Origin: Bradyrhizobium sp. WSM1417
GTDB lineage: Bacteria > Pseudomonadota > Alphaproteobacteria > Rhizobiales > Xanthobacteraceae
DNA: 64,000 nt
Assembly (NCBI RefSeq): GCF_000515415.1
Contig: NZ_KI911783.1
Location: 5,012,392 to 5,076,391 of the forward strand
Direction: 5' to 3'
The position numbers were made by a program, and so were the translations under genes. Below the pieces are notes generated by a model, which worked only from the letters and a program-made list of their open reading frames with translations, made no database searches and was not told the DNA's origin. Positions 30,867-36,857 of the stretch are shown piece after piece (the stretch's first letter is position 1; every line of letters starts with the position of its first letter).

Positions 30867-32075
30867 ATGCGTGATCGCCAGCCACCGACAATGCCCTTCC
30901 CTTCAAGTTCGATTGACACGGCCGGCCGTTCGCAGGGCTGGGCAAGGCAGACCGGCGCCCGCCTGTTCGGATGGCTGGTCCTGACGTGTAGTCTGGCGCT
31001 CGGCGCCTGCACCTCCCTGCCCCGCACGCCCTATACGGCCACCGAAGCCAGCACATCGCGCGTGCTCGATATCGACGGCCTGCGGCGCTACGCCGACGAA
31101 CCCATCACGAAATTCAGCTTCGAGAAGGACACCAGTACCGCGAGCAAGTCCTATCTGGCGCTGTCAGGCGGCGGTGCCGATGGCGCCTACGGTGTCGGCG
31201 TGCTGAACGGCTGGACCGCGGCCAGAACCCGTCCCACCTTCTCGGTCGTCTCCGGCGTGAGCACCGGCGGCCTGATCGCACCCTTTGCGTTTCTCGGCTC
31301 GCGATATGACGACACGCTGAAGGAGGTCTACACCAGCGGTGTCGCGGAGAGCCTGTTGAGCGATCCCAGCATCATGCGCGTGCTGTTCGGATCCGGCCTG
31401 TTCGGCAACACGCGGCTGCGCGAGCTCGTCGCCCGCTATGTCGGGCCGGAGATCATGGCGCAGGTCGCGCGTGAAAACGCCAAGGGGCGCAAGTTGCTGG
31501 TGGTGACGACAGATCTCGACACCCAGCGCACCGCGATCTGGGACATGGGCAAGATCGCCACGGTCGGCACGCCTGAGGCGCTCAAGCTGTTTCGCGACGT
31601 GATGGCGGCCTCCGCCAGCATCCCCCTGGTGTTTCCGCCCATCATGATCGACGCCGAAGGCGAGGGCCGCAGGTTTCAGGAGATGCATGTCGACGGCGGC
31701 GTGACGGCCCCGGTGCTGACACTGCCGGAAGCCCTGCTTTTCCAGGGCAGTCGCCTGCCCGGCCCTGCGATGCTGGACATCTACATCCTCGTCAACAAGA
31801 AGATCGAACGCAATTTCGAGCTCGTCTCCAACAGCACCATCGACGTCGCCTCACGCAGCCTGTCGTCGATCACGCAGTCGCAGACCCGTTCGATCATCTT
31901 CTCGACCTATGATTTTGCCAGGCGCAACCACCTCGGCTTCCACCTCTCCTACATCGCGCGCGACTATCCGGCGGCTCCCTCGGAAGGCTTCGACACCGCC
32001 TATATGCGAGCGCTGTACCAGTACGGATATGAGAAGGCGGCGTCGGGCCAGGCCTGGACTTCGACGCTTCCGTAA
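30867..32075 (+). CDS. patatin-like phospholipase lipoprotein
   Basis: The product has 402 residues. A signal sequence ends in the lipobox LALGAC (lipidated Cys48); ATG 30891 is an alternative start. The patatin fold follows: oxyanion loop GGGADGAYGVG, nucleophile Ser132 in GVSTG, and catalytic Asp276 in HVDGGV. It is probably an outer-membrane lipoprotein that hydrolyses membrane lipids. The TetR gene follows by 98 bp and may be co-transcribed. An operator overlaps the predicted promoter. Confidence 0.85.
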   Translation: MRDRQPPTMPFPSSSIDTAGRSQGWARQTGARLFGWLVLTCSLALGACTSLPRTPYTATEASTSRVLDIDGLRRYADEPITKFSFEKDTSTASKSYLALSGGGADGAYGVGVLNGWTAARTRPTFSVVSGVSTGGLIAPFAFLGSRYDDTLKEVYTSGVAESLLSDPSIMRVLFGSGLFGNTRLRELVARYVGPEIMAQVARENAKGRKLLVVTTDLDTQRTAIWDMGKIATVGTPEALKLFRDVMAASASIPLVFPPIMIDAEGEGRRFQEMHVDGGVTAPVLTLPEALLFQGSRLPGPAMLDIYILVNKKIERNFELVSNSTIDVASRSLSSITQSQTRSIIFSTYDFARRNHLGFHLSYIARDYPAAPSEGFDTAYMRALYQYGYEKAASGQAWTSTLP

Positions 32076-32173
32076 GCGCTCGCTGAGGAACAGGGCCGTG
32101 CCGAGACGGTTGACGATGGCGCCTATTCGGCCAGATTAGCCATGACGCACCCGTTACTGCGCGTTATAGAGCA

Positions 32174-32956
32174 ATGACGGATGTCACGACCGCGCAGGAA
32201 TCATTGGGCATGGGATTGACTGCGACCAAGACAAGACCAGCAGCGCCGCGACGCGAGGTGCCGAAATCGCGCGGCGGCCGACCGACGAAAAGCGCCGCGA
32301 TCGAGCGCGATCAGCGGCTGATCGAGGTCGCCACCCGCCTGTTCCTGGATCGCGGCTTTGACGCCACCTCGCTCGATGCGGTCGCGGAAGCCGCGCGCGT
32401 GAGCAAGCCCACCGTCTATGCCCGTTACGGCGACAAGCGCGGATTGTTCGCCGCCGTGCTGCGGCGCGAGATCGCACGATGGCTCGCACCGTTATCCGCG
32501 GCCGCCGAGACCCAGCTCAGCAGCGCCTCGGACATCTCGGTCGAACAGCGGCTGGTCGAGATCGGGCGCGAGATGCTGACATTCACCTGCGGTCCCGATG
32601 CCGTCGCCTTCAGCCGTATGATGACGTCGCAGGCCATCAACTTCCCTGACATCGCCAAGCTCGGCAAGGAGGAAGGCTGGCTCAAGGCCGTCGCCACCAC
32701 GGCACGCTTCTTCGACCATCTGGTGGCGCAAGGCGCGCTCGACGTCGACGACACCACCATCGCGGCGGAAGTGTTTCTCGACGTCGTCGTGGGGCACAAC
32801 CATCGCCTGGCGACGTTTGGAACGCCGCCGGAGATGAAGGCTGCGGAAAAGCGCATGCGCGCTGCGATCAAGCTGTTCCTGGCAGGCGCGCTGGGATCTG
32901 CGGACGGCGTCCAGAGCGCTGCCAAGGGCACGCAGCGGCGGCGCCCGTCGCGCTGA
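32174..32956 (+). CDS. TetR/AcrR family regulator
   Basis: The product has 260 residues. An Arg-rich N terminus leads into the HTH: RDQRLIEVATRLFLDRGFDA, TSLDAVAEAARVSKPTVYAR, YGDKRGLF, followed by a C-terminal ligand domain. It is flanked by two copies of one palindromic operator, one before the patatin gene upstream and one before the PepSY gene downstream, so it is the obvious candidate repressor of both. It has no copy at its own start; autoregulation could come through patatin readthrough. Confidence 0.85.
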   Translation: MTDVTTAQESLGMGLTATKTRPAAPRREVPKSRGGRPTKSAAIERDQRLIEVATRLFLDRGFDATSLDAVAEAARVSKPTVYARYGDKRGLFAAVLRREIARWLAPLSAAAETQLSSASDISVEQRLVEIGREMLTFTCGPDAVAFSRMMTSQAINFPDIAKLGKEEGWLKAVATTARFFDHLVAQGALDVDDTTIAAEVFLDVVVGHNHRLATFGTPPEMKAAEKRMRAAIKLFLAGALGSADGVQSAAKGTQRRRPSR

Positions 32957-33005
32957 CAATTCCGTGAGGTTGCGATCTTTCCAGGGGGATCCTGCGCCCA
33001 CGCCA

Positions 33006-33037
33006 TTGACGAAAACAAAACGATACGGTATGGTTTC
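33006..33037 (+). promoter_or_regulatory. promoter with overlapping TetR-type operator
   Basis: TTGACG (33006-33011) and TATGGT (33029-33034) are 17 bp apart, a good sigma-70 promoter. The palindrome with arms AAAACGATAC and GTATGGTTTC covers 33017-33037, that is, the spacer and the -10 box, where a repressor would block polymerase. It serves the PepSY gene. Confidence 0.65.
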
Positions 33038-33205
33038 ATTAATGGGCGATGCGGATCGCTTTTTCACCAGCCCCAAAGAGGTCCGCACCGCCTCGATCGC
33101 CGCGGCGGACAGCCCGTCACGACGCTCAGCGGCCGACCGATGCCCAAGGTCGGCCGCAAATTCTTTACGATCATCCGGCATACTCGCTGGCCGAGGGGTT
33201 CGAGC

Positions 33206-33808
33206 ATGACGACGGCCAAACGACGGATCTCGGGATTGTTCGCGATCACCCTGTCCGCACTCCTCCTCGCCGCTCCGGCGCGGGCGATCGTGAGCTCGGG
33301 TACGCCGACCACGCTTCACAGCGACACAGATGGTGACGCCGAGGCCGATCGCCAAGCGGTCAGTCGCGAGATCGAGCGCTTCCGCGGCTCGTCGATCTCG
33401 ATCAACCAGGCCATGGCGATTGCGGAAGCTTGTCACGCCGGTGCCACCACGGCGGATGTGAGTTTCGACGGAGCCTCCGGCGTGCCGGTCTACCGGGTGA
33501 AGACCCTGCACAACGACCGGATCTGGCGCCACACCATCAATGCCGCGACCGGCGAGCTCGTCGGCGGGGAAGCCGCCCTCCCTCTCGCCGAGCTCGACCT
33601 GGACGACCGCAGCAACCTCGCAGCGCTCGGTGCCATCAAGCACCGACTTGCGGATGCCGTGCACGTCGCCGAACGCGCGGCCTCCGGCAAAGCGATCAGC
33701 GGCGGACTGGTGCGCGAACGCGGCCGGCTGAATTTCGCGATCGTCGTCATCAGTGGCGACAACCTCAAGGAGGTCATCCTCGAGCCGCCGGGCGTCCGGA
33801 CCAAATAG
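33206..33808 (+). CDS. exported PepSY-domain protein
   Basis: The product has 200 residues from ATG 33206. A Sec signal (LFAITLSALLLAAPARA) precedes two PepSY-like halves, each with a helix followed by a strand pair (NQAMAIAEACHAGATTADVS; IKHRLADAVHVAERAASG). PepSY proteins bind or inhibit peptidases or sense envelope state. The start overlaps the end of an upstream 55-codon frame (ATGA), which may or may not be translated. Confidence 0.7.
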   Translation: MTTAKRRISGLFAITLSALLLAAPARAIVSSGTPTTLHSDTDGDAEADRQAVSREIERFRGSSISINQAMAIAEACHAGATTADVSFDGASGVPVYRVKTLHNDRIWRHTINAATGELVGGEAALPLAELDLDDRSNLAALGAIKHRLADAVHVAERAASGKAISGGLVRERGRLNFAIVVISGDNLKEVILEPPGVRTK

Positions 33809-33836
33809 CGGCAGCCCCAATCCCGCCGAAAAGCCA

Positions 33837-33865
33837 TTGACGGGCGCAAAACTCTCCCGCATAAG
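33837..33865 (+). promoter_or_regulatory. sigma-70 promoter of the asd leader
   Basis: TTGACG (33837-33842), 17-bp spacer, CATAAG (33860-33865). Transcription should start around 33871-33874, at or within a few bases of the leader ATG, so the leader ORF is probably leaderless. Confidence 0.65.
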
Positions 33866-33873
33866 CTCCCGCC

Positions 33874-33945
33874 ATGTTCACGACCACCAAACGCACGACT
33901 AAAACCACCACGGCCTTCGGGGCCCGGGGAGGCGTGCGCGTGTAG
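33874..33945 (+). CDS. threonine-rich leader peptide of asd
   Basis: A 23-codon ORF begins MFTTTKRTTKTTTAFG and ends GGVRV-stop. Eight of 23 codons are Thr (four ACC, three ACG, one ACT), clustered at positions 3-5, 8-9 and 11-13. It sits between a sigma-70 promoter and an intrinsic terminator upstream of asd, which makes the precursor of Thr, Met and Lys. This is the layout of a translational attenuator: low charged Thr-tRNA would stall the ribosome. Transcription seems to begin at the ATG, as in the leaderless trpL of Sinorhizobium. Confidence 0.75.
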   Translation: MFTTTKRTTKTTTAFGARGGVRV

Positions 33946-33972
33946 TCGTCGACTAGAACGCAATCCACTCTA

Positions 33973-34007
33973 CCGAAGCCCCGCCCTCGTTGGTCCGGGG
34001 CTTTTTT
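33973..34007 (+). terminator. attenuator terminator of asd
   Basis: Stem AAGCCCCG (33976-33983) with CGGGGCTT (33996-34003), 12-base loop, six T. Within the leader ORF, just after the Thr codons, CTTCGG (33915-33920) can pair with CCGAAG (33973-33978), and CGGGGC (33918-33923) with GCCCCG (33978-33983). Either would prevent the terminator stem, giving an antiterminator. Confidence 0.75.
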
Positions 34008-34040
34008 GTTGTCTGAATTCTCAAATCAATGGAGGACAAA

Positions 34041-35066
34041 GTGAGTAACGATCCCGTCGTCGCAATTGTCGGCGTCACCGGTGCGGTGGGCGCCGAATTC
34101 ATCGCCACCATGGACAAGCGCGGCTTTCGCGTCGGCAAGCTCAAGGCGCTGGCCAGCGCCCGCTCGGCCGGCAAGACGGTGTCGTTCTGTGGGCAGGACG
34201 TCGTCATCGAGGAGCTGACCGAACGCGCCTTCGAAGGCGTCGACATCGCCCTGTTCTCCGCCGGCGGCAGCATCTCGAAGAAGTATGCCCCGATCGCGGT
34301 CAAGGCGGGTGCCGTCGTCGTCGACAACTCCTCCGCCTTCCGCATGGATCCGAACGTGCCGCTGGTGATCCCCGAAATCAACGCGAACCGCATCCGCGAC
34401 CACAAGGGCATCATCGCCAACCCGAACTGCGCCGCCATCACGGCGCTGGTGCCGCTGTGGCCGATCCACCAGAGCAACCGCATCAAGCGCGTGATCATCT
34501 CGACCTATCAGGCGGCCTCCGGCGCCGGCGCTGCCGCAATGGACGAGCTGGTCGAGTCCACCCGCGCCAACCTCAACGGGCAGGTTTATACGCCGAAGGT
34601 GATGCCGCATCCCTACGCCTTCAACCTCTTCAACCACAACACGGCGATCGACCCTGACACCGGCTACAACGACGAAGAGACCAAGGTCATCAACGAAACC
34701 CGCAAGATCTTCGAGGACGACAAGATCGCGATCGGCGTCACCTGCGTGCGCGTGCCGGTGCTGCGGGCTCATTGCGAGGCCATCACCTTCGAATGCGAGA
34801 AGCCGATCAGCGAGGATCAGGTCCGTGCCATCATGGCGCGAGCGCCCGGTGTCAAGGTCGTCGACGACCGTGCCAAGAACTACTTCCCGATGCCGATCGA
34901 CGCTTCGGGCCAGGACGACGTCCTGGTCGGTCGCATCCGCAAGGACCTCAGCGACCCCTCCGGGCATTCGATCTCGATGTTCGTGGCGGCGGACCAACTG
35001 CTCAAGGGCGCTGCGCTCAACGCGGTACAGATCGCGGAGCTCCTGCCGCAGCGGGTGATGGCGTAA
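34041..35066 (+). CDS. asd: aspartate-semialdehyde dehydrogenase
   Basis: GTG 34041 is preferred because GGAGGA lies 4 bp before it; the ATG at 34029 would put the Shine-Dalgarno inside the gene. The protein (341 residues) has an NADP-binding GVTGAVG, the catalytic Cys in ANPNCAAI, and the substrate helix GAGAAAMDEL. It reduces aspartyl phosphate to the semialdehyde, a branch point to Lys, Thr and Met. A Thr-rich leader with terminator lies upstream. Confidence 0.9.
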   Translation: MSNDPVVAIVGVTGAVGAEFIATMDKRGFRVGKLKALASARSAGKTVSFCGQDVVIEELTERAFEGVDIALFSAGGSISKKYAPIAVKAGAVVVDNSSAFRMDPNVPLVIPEINANRIRDHKGIIANPNCAAITALVPLWPIHQSNRIKRVIISTYQAASGAGAAAMDELVESTRANLNGQVYTPKVMPHPYAFNLFNHNTAIDPDTGYNDEETKVINETRKIFEDDKIAIGVTCVRVPVLRAHCEAITFECEKPISEDQVRAIMARAPGVKVVDDRAKNYFPMPIDASGQDDVLVGRIRKDLSDPSGHSISMFVAADQLLKGAALNAVQIAELLPQRVMA

Positions 35067-35075
35067 CGGGAGGTG

Positions 35076-35169
35076 CGTAGGGTGGGCAAAGGCGCGCAAG
35101 CGCCGTGCCACCATTTCCCTCGCGCATCCACGAAAGATGGTGGGCACGCTTCGCTCTGCCCACCCTACG
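35076..35169. repeat. palindromic dispersed repeat
   Basis: Arms CGTAGGGTGGGCAAAG and CTCTGCCCACCCTACG border an inner GCGCAAGCGC-like and CACCAT/ATGGTG structure, so the whole stretch folds as a long hairpin. It fills the gap between the convergent asd and queA genes. I recall the same arms in many rhizobial intergenic regions. Confidence 0.7.
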
Positions 35170-35177
35170 GCGCCGAA

Positions 35178-36251
35178 TTAGTCGCGCGCCCGAAACAACA
35201 GACACGCATCGCCATAAGAATAGAACCGATAGCCGGTCGCGATCGCGTGTGCATAGGCCTGCTGCATCATCTCCAGCCCGGAGAACGCCGAGACCAGCAT
35301 GAACAGTGTCGATTTCGGCAAATGGAAATTGGTCAGCAGAACATCGACGGCGCGGAAGCGATAGCCGGGAGTGATGAAGATCGACGTCTCGGCGGCGAAC
35401 GGCTCAATGGTGCCGTCCTCGCCGGCTGCGCTTTCGAGCAGACGCAACGACGTGGTGCCAACCGCGATGATACGGCCGCCGTTCTTGCGCGCGGTGTTGA
35501 GTCGTTCCGCCGTCTCGGCCGAGAGCGTGCCCCACTCGGCATGCATCTTGTGGCCTTCGGTGTCGTCCACTTTCACCGGCAGGAAGGTCCCTGCCCCGAC
35601 ATGCAGCGTGACGCGATTGATGCCGACGCCGCGCGCGTGCAGCGCCTGCTCCAGCGCGGGCGTGAAATGCAGGCCTGCTGTCGGCGCGGCAACGGCGCCT
35701 TCGTTCGCCGCGAACATGGTCTGGTAGTCGGCGAGATCCTGATCGTCAGGCGTGCGTTTCGAGGCAATGTAGGGCGGCAGCGGCGGGCTGCCGAGATCGG
35801 CGATGGCTTGATCCAATGTGGGGCCGTGGAACGAAAATGACAGCGTCACCTCGCCTTCCGCGCCCTTGGCCTCGACCTCGGCGTCGAGATGGCCGAGCAG
35901 GCAGACCTTGCCCTCATTGCCAAAGCGGATGCGGTCACCGGCCGTGAGTTTCTTGGCGGGCTTCACCAGCGCCTGCCAGCGCGAGCCGTCGAGCCGTTTG
36001 ATCAGCGTTGCCTCGATCTTCGGCTCGGTCTCGCGGCCGATGCGACGGCCTTTCAATTGCGCCGCGATCACCTTGGTGTCGTTGACGACGAGCTGGTCGC
36101 CCGGCTTCAGCCATTGCGGCAGGTCGGCGACGATTTGGTCGCGCAACGTGCCGTGATCGACAACCAGCATCTTCGCGGAGTCGCGCGGTCTCGCCGGGCG
36201 CAATGCGATGCGCTCGGCGGGCAGGTCGAAATCGAAGAGGTCGGTGCGCAT
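35178..36251 (-). CDS. queA: S-adenosylmethionine:tRNA ribosyltransferase-isomerase
   Basis: The product has 357 residues. Conserved segments are [54 protein letters not shown] and [10 protein letters not shown]. It transfers the ribosyl part of SAM to preQ1 in tRNA, giving epoxyqueuosine, the step after Tgt. In this window it is separated from tgt by a plus-strand block, although both lie on the minus strand. Confidence 0.9.
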
Positions 36252-36276
36252 CGCGGGCTCACGGCCGTACAGTCAG

Positions 36277-36386
36277 ACCCTCATGGTGAGGAGGCGCGGA
36301 GTGCCGTCTCGAACCAAAGGCCGGGCTGCAGCAGCGGGGCCTTCATCCTTCGAGACGCGCGTTCCGCGCGCCGCAGGATGAGGGTT
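36277..36386. repeat. dispersed repeat between queA and ppiB
   Basis: Inverted ends ACCCTCAT and ATGAGGGT, with inner CGAGACGCGC and related segments. It has the look of a repeated intergenic hairpin family of alphaproteobacteria (from memory). It lies 6 bp from the stop of ppiB. Confidence 0.6.
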
Positions 36387-36392
36387 GAACGC

Positions 36393-36857
36393 CTACTCCG
36401 CGTCAGCCGCCATCCGCGCCTTGACGATCTTGTCGGGGTTCTGCACGGGCTCGCCGCGCTTGATCTTGTCGACGTTCTCCATGCCCTCGGTGACCTTGCC
36501 CCACACCGTGTACTGGTTGTCGAGGAAGCGGGCGTCGTCGAAGCAGATGAAGAACTGGCTGTCGCCGGAATCCGGGCTGGCGGCGCGCGCCATCGAGGTG
36601 GTGCCGCGCACATGCGGCTCCTTGTTGAACTCGGCCTTCAGCTTCTGGCCGGAGCCGCCAGTGCCGGTGCCCTGCGGGCAGCCGGTCTGCGCCATGAAGC
36701 CGTCGATCACGCGATGGAACACGATTCCGTCGTAGAAGCCTTCGCGCACGAGCTCCTTGATGCGCGCGACGTGGCCGGGCGCCAGATCAGGCCGCATCTC
36801 GATGGTGACGGGGCCCTGCGTGGTCTCGAGGATCAGTGTGTTTTCGGTGGCGCTCAT
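36393..36857 (-). CDS. ppiB: peptidyl-prolyl cis-trans isomerase, cyclophilin type
   Basis: This 154-residue cytoplasmic cyclophilin contains FHRVIDGFMAQTG (active-site Arg), SQFFICF and the WGKVTEGMENVDKI end. It has no signal peptide. Its ATG overlaps the stop of the upstream TonB-like gene. It sits in the coaD-ppi-ppi-queA cluster typical of alphaproteobacteria. Confidence 0.9.
   Translation of the reverse strand: MSATENTLILETTQGPVTIEMRPDLAPGHVARIKELVREGFYDGIVFHRVIDGFMAQTGCPQGTGTGGSGQKLKAEFNKEPHVRGTTSMARAASPDSGDSQFFICFDDARFLDNQYTVWGKVTEGMENVDKIKRGEPVQNPDKIVKARMAADAE

Follow-up and report, generated by a model that had tools for sequence, protein, structure and literature searches.

A putative threonine/lysine attenuator in front of the second asd gene of Bradyrhizobium

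The enzyme encoded by asd, aspartate-semialdehyde dehydrogenase, supplies the precursor from which threonine, lysine and methionine are all made. In the stretch of Bradyrhizobium sp. WSM1417 DNA analysed here (64,000 nucleotides, in the following the window), an asd gene is preceded by a short threonine-rich open reading frame and a GC-rich hairpin. The locus raises the question of whether a translated leader controls this gene and, if it does, which amino acids are sensed. We consider it quite likely that a ribosome-mediated transcription attenuator makes transcription of this second asd depend on how much Thr-tRNA and Lys-tRNA is available. We are less confident about the antiterminator pairing and about which amino acids are sensed than about attenuation itself.

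The leader, its predicted promoter and the second asd

The leader with its eight Thr codons, the GC hairpin followed by six T and a competing antiterminator in front of asd had all been described in the initial annotation. The leader and the hairpin are confirmed in the sequence, and the antiterminator is predicted in the nascent folds, at modest significance (Table 1). Beside the Thr codons the leader has two Lys codons. When both strands of the 64 kb window are scanned for small ORFs of 8-60 aa, taking the longest start for each stop, this leader is the only one of 825 with at least six Thr per 12 residues.

Table 1. Positions, in window numbering, of the elements of the proposed attenuator and of asd.
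Feature	Position	Strand	Description
Predicted promoter	33837..33865	+	-35 TTGACG 33837-33842, 17-nt spacer, -10 CATAAG 33860-33865
Leader ORF	33874..33945	+	23 codons, ATG 33874 to TAG 33945; encodes MFTTTKRTTKTTTAFGARGGVRV
Control codons Thr9, Lys10, Thr11	33898..33906	+	ribosome stalled there switches the predicted terminator off
Region 2, antiterminator 5' strand CGGGGCCCGGGGAG	33918..33931	+	from nascent folds; within the 3' half of the leader
Region 3 CTCTACCGAAGCCCCG	33968..33983	+	antiterminator 3' strand; its GCCCCG 33978-33983 doubles as terminator 5' arm
Intrinsic terminator AAGCCCCG-loop-CGGGGC, then T6	33976..34007	+	from pattern scan; arms GCCCCG 33978-33983 and CGGGGC 33996-34001, T6 34002-34007
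asd, aspartate-semialdehyde dehydrogenase	34041..35066	+	341 aa from GTG 34041; 345 aa from ATG 34029

Eight nucleotides separate the predicted -10 element CATAAG from the leader ATG in the window. The promoter pattern is matched in 92 of 93 upstream regions, with L054 as the exception, and 88 of the 93 (window included) share the 17-nt spacer, CATAAG and a distance of 7-8 nt to the leader ATG. The remaining variants are two with 11 nt, one with a 15-nt spacer, CATATG and 11 nt, and one with a 14-nt spacer. A Shine-Dalgarno sequence before the leader start is found in 0 of 92 loci. Since the promoter lies so near to the ATG that the transcript would begin there, and since the Shine-Dalgarno sequence is missing, the leader ORF probably sits on a leaderless mRNA.

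The downstream gene is identified by its product, which scores 407 bits against TIGR01296 (cutoff 324.2). Its start is most likely GTG 34041 and not ATG 34029, because a Shine-Dalgarno sequence (duplex of -5 kcal/mol or lower) precedes the GTG position in 92 of 92 loci, as against 1 of 92 for the listed start. The codon at the 34041 position is GTG or ATG in 92 of 93 cases, and ATG stands at the listed start in 81 of 93. This asd is an extra copy beside the main asd, which in the same genome (L003) shows 45% identity. At E 1e-120, 12 of 198 genomes of the family have the window-type asd, and 11 of these 12 belong to the same genus as the window; the main asd was detected at E 1e-60 in 195 of the 199 genomes searched in the order. 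The genome holds a further unit of leader, hairpin and asd (L002, C1:1897714-1898882), in which the asd copy is 95% identical and out of frame near its start.

Predicted folds and the position of the stalled ribosome

The proposed mechanism starts with transcription that would begin at or beside the leader ATG, where a ribosome would initiate without a Shine-Dalgarno sequence. With ample threonine and lysine the ribosome would reach the stop codon and mask region 2; region 3 would then pair with region 4, and transcription would stop at about position 34007. Scarcity of charged Thr- or Lys-tRNA would instead stall the ribosome at codons 9-11, allowing regions 2 and 3 to pair, which would keep the terminator from forming and let asd be transcribed.

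We folded the nascent RNA from the ribosome's edge through region 3. In the predicted antiterminator, CGGGGC-C-CGG-GGAG faces CUC-U-A-CCG-AA-GCCCCG and encloses an inner hairpin. An antiterminator strand within the leader had been proposed at 33915-33929; its location in the leader is borne out by the nascent folds, which shift it to 33918-33931. Without a ribosome the terminator forms, with a mean probability of 0.96 over 82 leaders and values below 0.5 in 2 of the 82.

Ribosome stalls were scanned with the A site at codons 2-24 and with three assumed footprints (edge +13, +15 and +17). In the window's leader, the probability of the terminator drops to 0.04 at codon 10 and 0.01 at codon 11 for edge +13, to 0.01 and 0.00 at the same codons for edge +15, and to 0.01 at codons 9 and 10 for edge +17. 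It is 0.67-1.00 at all other stall codons, and only codons 9-11 flip the predicted fold. A stall at codon 8/9, as first suggested, is thus replaced by codons 9-11, one to two codons further on, with 10 and 11 as the best positions. The mean over the 82 leaders is minimal at the same codons (0.19-0.28). For edge +15 it amounts to 0.21 at codon 10 and 0.19 at codon 11, and values below 0.5 are reached in 63 of 82 leaders at codon 10 and in 70 of 82 at codon 11. From about codon 12-13 onward, or with the ribosome at the stop codon, the terminator forms (mean 0.99-1.00). Stalling at one of the codons 3-8 likewise tips the predicted fold towards antitermination in 18-27 of the 82 leaders (edge +15), so that the limits of codons 9-11 are sharp in the window's leader and not in all leaders. 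Individual leaders deviate: L092, L093 and L094 retain a predicted terminator of at least 0.96 despite a ribosome at codons 10 and 11, L028 gives 0.63 and 0.97 with the ribosome at these two codons, and L091 has a predicted terminator of just 0.06 without a ribosome. The invariant control codons Lys10 and Thr11 coincide with the stalls that act most effectively on the predicted fold.

As a whole, the leader region has an unremarkable folding energy (z -1.27, with 16 of 200 shuffles as low), and the case consequently rests on conservation rather than on stability. Pairing of shuffled region 2 with region 3 was scored in nine of ten leaders, with L094 left out. The p values are 0.012 for L028, 0.008 for L050, 0.006 for L065, 0.016 for L091, 0.026 for L092 and 0.023 for L093, and 0.093 for the window, 0.264 for L022 and 0.161 for L049. 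When regions 2 and 3 are swapped between clades, mismatched partners often pair as well as matched ones, which gives no clear sign of co-evolution. Compensatory changes in the stems, named in the initial annotation as expected support, were not found for the antiterminator: 84.9% of cells are paired in alignment A1 compared with 84.8% in shuffles. In the RNAalifold consensus both sides are changed in 2 of 20 pairs. Sliding the antiterminator partner lowers pairing to 37-53%, a drop to be expected anyway as the structure was taken from one of the sequences. Covariation finds no support here because the stems hardly vary. In the L050 group an inserted C moves the pairing register, and column counting cannot credit such a shift.

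Conservation and competing explanations

Conservation was assessed in the best 80 of 570 confirmed loci, whose titles name 78 Bradyrhizobium, 1 Bradyrhizobiaceae and 1 Frankia. All 80 carry a leader with at least five Thr, in agreement with the earlier expectation that the Thr codons are kept among relatives. The set grows to 92 loci when 11 from further genomes and L002, the additional copy in the own genome, are included. Each of these (92/92, window not counted) has a stem with a T-run of T5 or more between leader and asd; loss of the terminator in relatives, which had been named as refuting attenuation, is absent within Bradyrhizobium. The Frankia title belongs to L066 (JAUEPE010000002.1, Frankia sp. 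RB7), which is probably mislabelled, with an asd 94% identical to that of the window and an identical leader type.

Among 82 distinct leaders, 81 have an in-frame stop after 22-24 codons, and 76 have 23 codons. All of these 76 have AAA for Lys10 and ACC for Thr11; Lys6 is encoded by AAA in 75, and one has AGA instead. Thr8 is found in 74, Thr5 in 72, Thr12 in 71, Thr9 in 70, Thr3 in 66, Thr13 in 60 and Thr4 in 58. Codons 16, 19 and 21 are likewise invariant, which can be explained by region 2 and the adjoining stem, and codon 15 is highly variable. Length variants arise through an in-frame insertion (L006, 24 codons), an in-frame deletion (L022, 22 codons) and alteration of the usual stop (L083, 24 codons); for L049 the second ATG was taken as the start. 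L094 belongs to another genus; its 22 codons include Lys at codon 11 and none at codons 6 or 10. In L084, a 1-nt deletion lies 3' of the control codons, and an in-frame stop is lacking. L084 aside, the distance from stop codon to hairpin arm varies over 27-33 nt and is not kept in multiples of three. The covariance model R1, built from 26 sequences, recovers the element in 27 listed genomes of the same genus (E 3.6e-29 or better) and in one genome of another genus (E 1.6e-26); some of the matched genomes are part of the model by construction.

Outside the family, elsewhere in the class and phylum, there are more distant relatives of this asd, 51-61% identical to the window copy. At E 1e-95 the search with the window asd matched 24 of 398 genomes, of which 14 belong to other families; relatives 56-67% identical to L191 were found in 20 of 289 genomes at E 1e-115, one being the own genome. 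From these, 27 upstream regions were examined, 19 from the L191 search and 8 of the 14 from the window-copy search. By rule (at least six Thr/Lys in 12, including at least three Thr) 18 of the 27 have a Thr/Lys leader, compared with 0 of 27 on the reverse strand and a shuffle mean of 0.23 (maximum 1). Reading by eye adds L194 and L208, giving 20 of 27; no leader was found in L197, L198, L199, L211, L214, L216 and L217, of which L198 and L199 lie outside the class. All 20 leaders contain both Thr and Lys within codons 2-16, 13 contain Met and 10 Ile; over codons 2-15, Thr is the commonest residue with 35% and Lys accounts for 18%. A promoter-like pair at 6-10 nt from the ATG is seen in 19 of the 20, in a best-match search that is biased towards such a result, and a Shine-Dalgarno sequence in 1 of 20. 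The terminator outside Bradyrhizobium is kept in part: a permissive search finds a stem 3' of each of the 20 leaders, but a T-run of at least five follows the hairpin in just four (L193, L209, L212 and L219). In L204 the T-run falls inside the leader and not behind the hairpin.

Leaders of similar composition stand before the main asd of the order. Of 40 upstream regions taken from the 195 genomes with a main asd, 30 hold a Thr/Lys-rich small ORF in their last 350 nt, as against 0 of 40 on the reverse strand and a mean of 0.42 (maximum 2) in shuffles; with all 600 nt the count is 25 of 40, as longer ORFs fail the rule. These ORFs (L150-L189, 30/40) often have terminal Thr/Lys runs. All 30 belong to the 38 regions from outside the window's family, and the other two of the 40, from within it, have no leader. 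A pattern search for a stem with at least five T gave 0 of 40. Within the window's family, the main asd shows a Thr/Lys leader in 0 of 30 cases (best 30 of 60 with a match), and an equivalent leader on the main asd in the window's own genome was considered and rejected, as none is present there. From these counts it follows that Thr/Lys leaders before asd are widespread in the order, that the examined main asd genes of this family have none and that the extra asd of Bradyrhizobium has one. This pattern may reflect loss of the leader on the family's main asd and its re-acquisition by Bradyrhizobium with the extra asd.

We regard attenuation as well supported because control codons, frame and terminator are kept in Bradyrhizobium and because Thr/Lys leaders recur in other families. 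The first reading as a threonine attenuator is supported with respect to attenuation; its specificity is more likely Thr plus Lys. The leader probably responds to both amino acids, since Lys10 and Thr11 are invariant in 76 of 76 leaders and the predicted terminator of the window is off only at codons 9-11. That Thr-tRNA alone is sensed and the Lys codons are incidental seems unlikely to us, though it deserves to be taken seriously. Thr11 is invariant to the same degree as Lys10, Thr is the commonest residue in the leaders of other families, and L094 manages without Lys at codons 6 or 10. Against this stand the AAA codons at positions 10 and 6 of the 23-codon leaders, the presence of Lys in 20 of 20 other-family leaders and the fact that asd also serves the lysine branch.

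Two further explanations are improbable. Control could act through Rho-dependent termination or at the level of asd translation instead of an intrinsic terminator, as the 16 of 20 other-family leaders without a T-run of at least five behind the hairpin and the 40 of 40 main-asd upstream regions without a stem plus at least five T in the pattern search might suggest; in Bradyrhizobium, however, the stem with T5 or more is kept at every locus (92/92), and asd has a strong Shine-Dalgarno sequence of its own before its start. Equally doubtful is an action in trans of the terminated leader RNA or peptide, in the manner of Sinorhizobium rnTrpL/peTrpL, besides or instead of attenuation of asd. The leaderless layout does resemble that described for S. 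meliloti trpL in PMC7298713 and PMC10117765, and C-terminal residues of the leader are conserved too. This C-terminal part, however, overlaps region 2, so RNA pairing can explain its conservation, and codon 15 is highly variable. Finally, it is very improbable that the hairpin simply terminates the PepSY gene upstream, with the leader ORF there by coincidence: a PepSY-domain gene on the same strand ends at 33808 and the pattern scan gives no further + strand terminator between it and asd, but a conserved promoter-like pair and an ORF intervene, and the leader unit stays with asd despite different upstream sequence (L002; other families).

Known systems and related leaders

The principle of attenuation is textbook; its location before asd and the Thr/Lys pair are little described. 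The closest classical system is the thrL attenuator of the thrABC operon in Enterobacteria (Rfam Thr_leader), whose leader carries Thr and Ile codons and precedes thrA. The window element shares with thrL a leader peptide with codons for pathway products, a terminator that a predicted antiterminator would oppose, and an aspartate-pathway gene as target. Unlike thrL, it combines Thr with Lys, stands before asd and is apparently leaderless. Vitreschak et al. reportedly surveyed leader attenuation in proteobacteria by comparative genomics in 2004; the abstract is not known to mention an asd element. Neither Rfam Thr_leader nor the asd motif RF01732 matches at E up to 1 in window positions 32000-36500, where the sole match at this threshold is to an unrelated viral family and lies outside the element.

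The initial annotation knew of no described asd attenuator in Rhizobiales, a statement that has to be qualified. PMC10117765 reports the Sinorhizobium meliloti sORF SEP5, which lies in the 5' UTR of an 'aspartate dehydrogenase' gene and contains six Thr and three Lys codons; its translation was detected by Ribo-seq and Western blot, it was proposed as a possible leader peptide, and it is said there to be conserved in Sinorhizobium only. The passages on SEP5 contain no RNA structure. We infer that the gene behind SEP5 is aspartate-semialdehyde dehydrogenase. Judged by its description, SEP5 is probably one of the main-asd leaders of the order; it would then differ from the window element in standing before a different (main) asd and in lacking a T-run terminator. 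SEP5 is thus partial prior art for an asd leader in Rhizobiales.

The leaderless layout has its parallel in S. meliloti trpL/rnTrpL, a trp attenuator with its leader ORF at the 5' end of the transcript (PMC7298713, PMC10117765). The window element would share with it a leader ORF at the 5' end and transcription attenuation in Rhizobiales; trpL differs by its Trp codons and its target trpE(G), and its 5'-end start is reported, whereas that of the window element is predicted from the promoter position. In B. japonicum, 320 transcription starts lie 0-10 nt before annotated start codons according to PMC4842269; a word search of its main text gives no hit for asd, attenuat- or leader peptide. The asd RNA motif RF01732 is likewise named for asd, but is a structured RNA of another phylum, described in Lactobacillales in PMC2864571; the reference list of that paper cites attenuator-like sequences before Streptococcus mutans asd. 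The word asd is absent from PMC2965389 and PMC1273637, and titles and abstracts of the open-licence literature searched hold no report of asd attenuation in Bradyrhizobium.

Fifteen weaker R1 matches, together with L097, L132 and L133, include two related leader groups; the rest look like unrelated terminators or coding sequence and were rejected. In the first of these groups (L132-L137 and L139, same family), leaderless-looking leaders such as MINLAAHRNDKYRASIGAGDARAR with a matching terminator layout precede a dapA-like gene. The gene of L133 scores 207.5 bits against TIGR00674 (cut-off 206.15), and the remaining genes look similar. The seven leaders, some of them read by eye, share a single Lys codon at position 11, and judged by this codon they are possibly a lysine attenuator on the same chassis. 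The second group (L097, own genome C1:6135196-6135330, minus; L140, L142, L148) has a conserved leader-like ORF, for example MIKSSRTFNRNHMTRFGWAVGGVAR, and a terminator before a small gene, which downstream of L097 encodes a DUF1127 domain.

Taken together, the dapA and asd leaders allow a tentative reading to which we give somewhat less than even weight. Alphaproteobacteria may share a leaderless attenuator chassis that is re-addressed via codons 8-12. It would consist of a promoter, an ATG at the transcript start, about 24 codons with a control codon at 10-11, a GGGG region 2 overlapping the leader end and a CCCCG/CGGGG hairpin. Re-addressing would place Thr plus Lys before the extra asd, and one invariant Lys before dapA in other genera. 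Thr/Lys control of asd in the order would have arisen, or been kept, on two asd lineages, and the family would have lost the leader on its main asd, with Bradyrhizobium regaining control through a second asd that brought its own attenuator.

For the organism, the element is a candidate, open to direct testing, for the means by which a large group of plant symbionts would place the branch-point enzyme of lysine, threonine, methionine and diaminopimelate synthesis under feedback control. It offers a possible reason for the presence of two asd genes in Bradyrhizobium. The comparison suggests that the remark on a Sinorhizobium sORF belongs to a mode of control found across much of the order, and that the same mode, on another asd lineage, reaches further families of the class.
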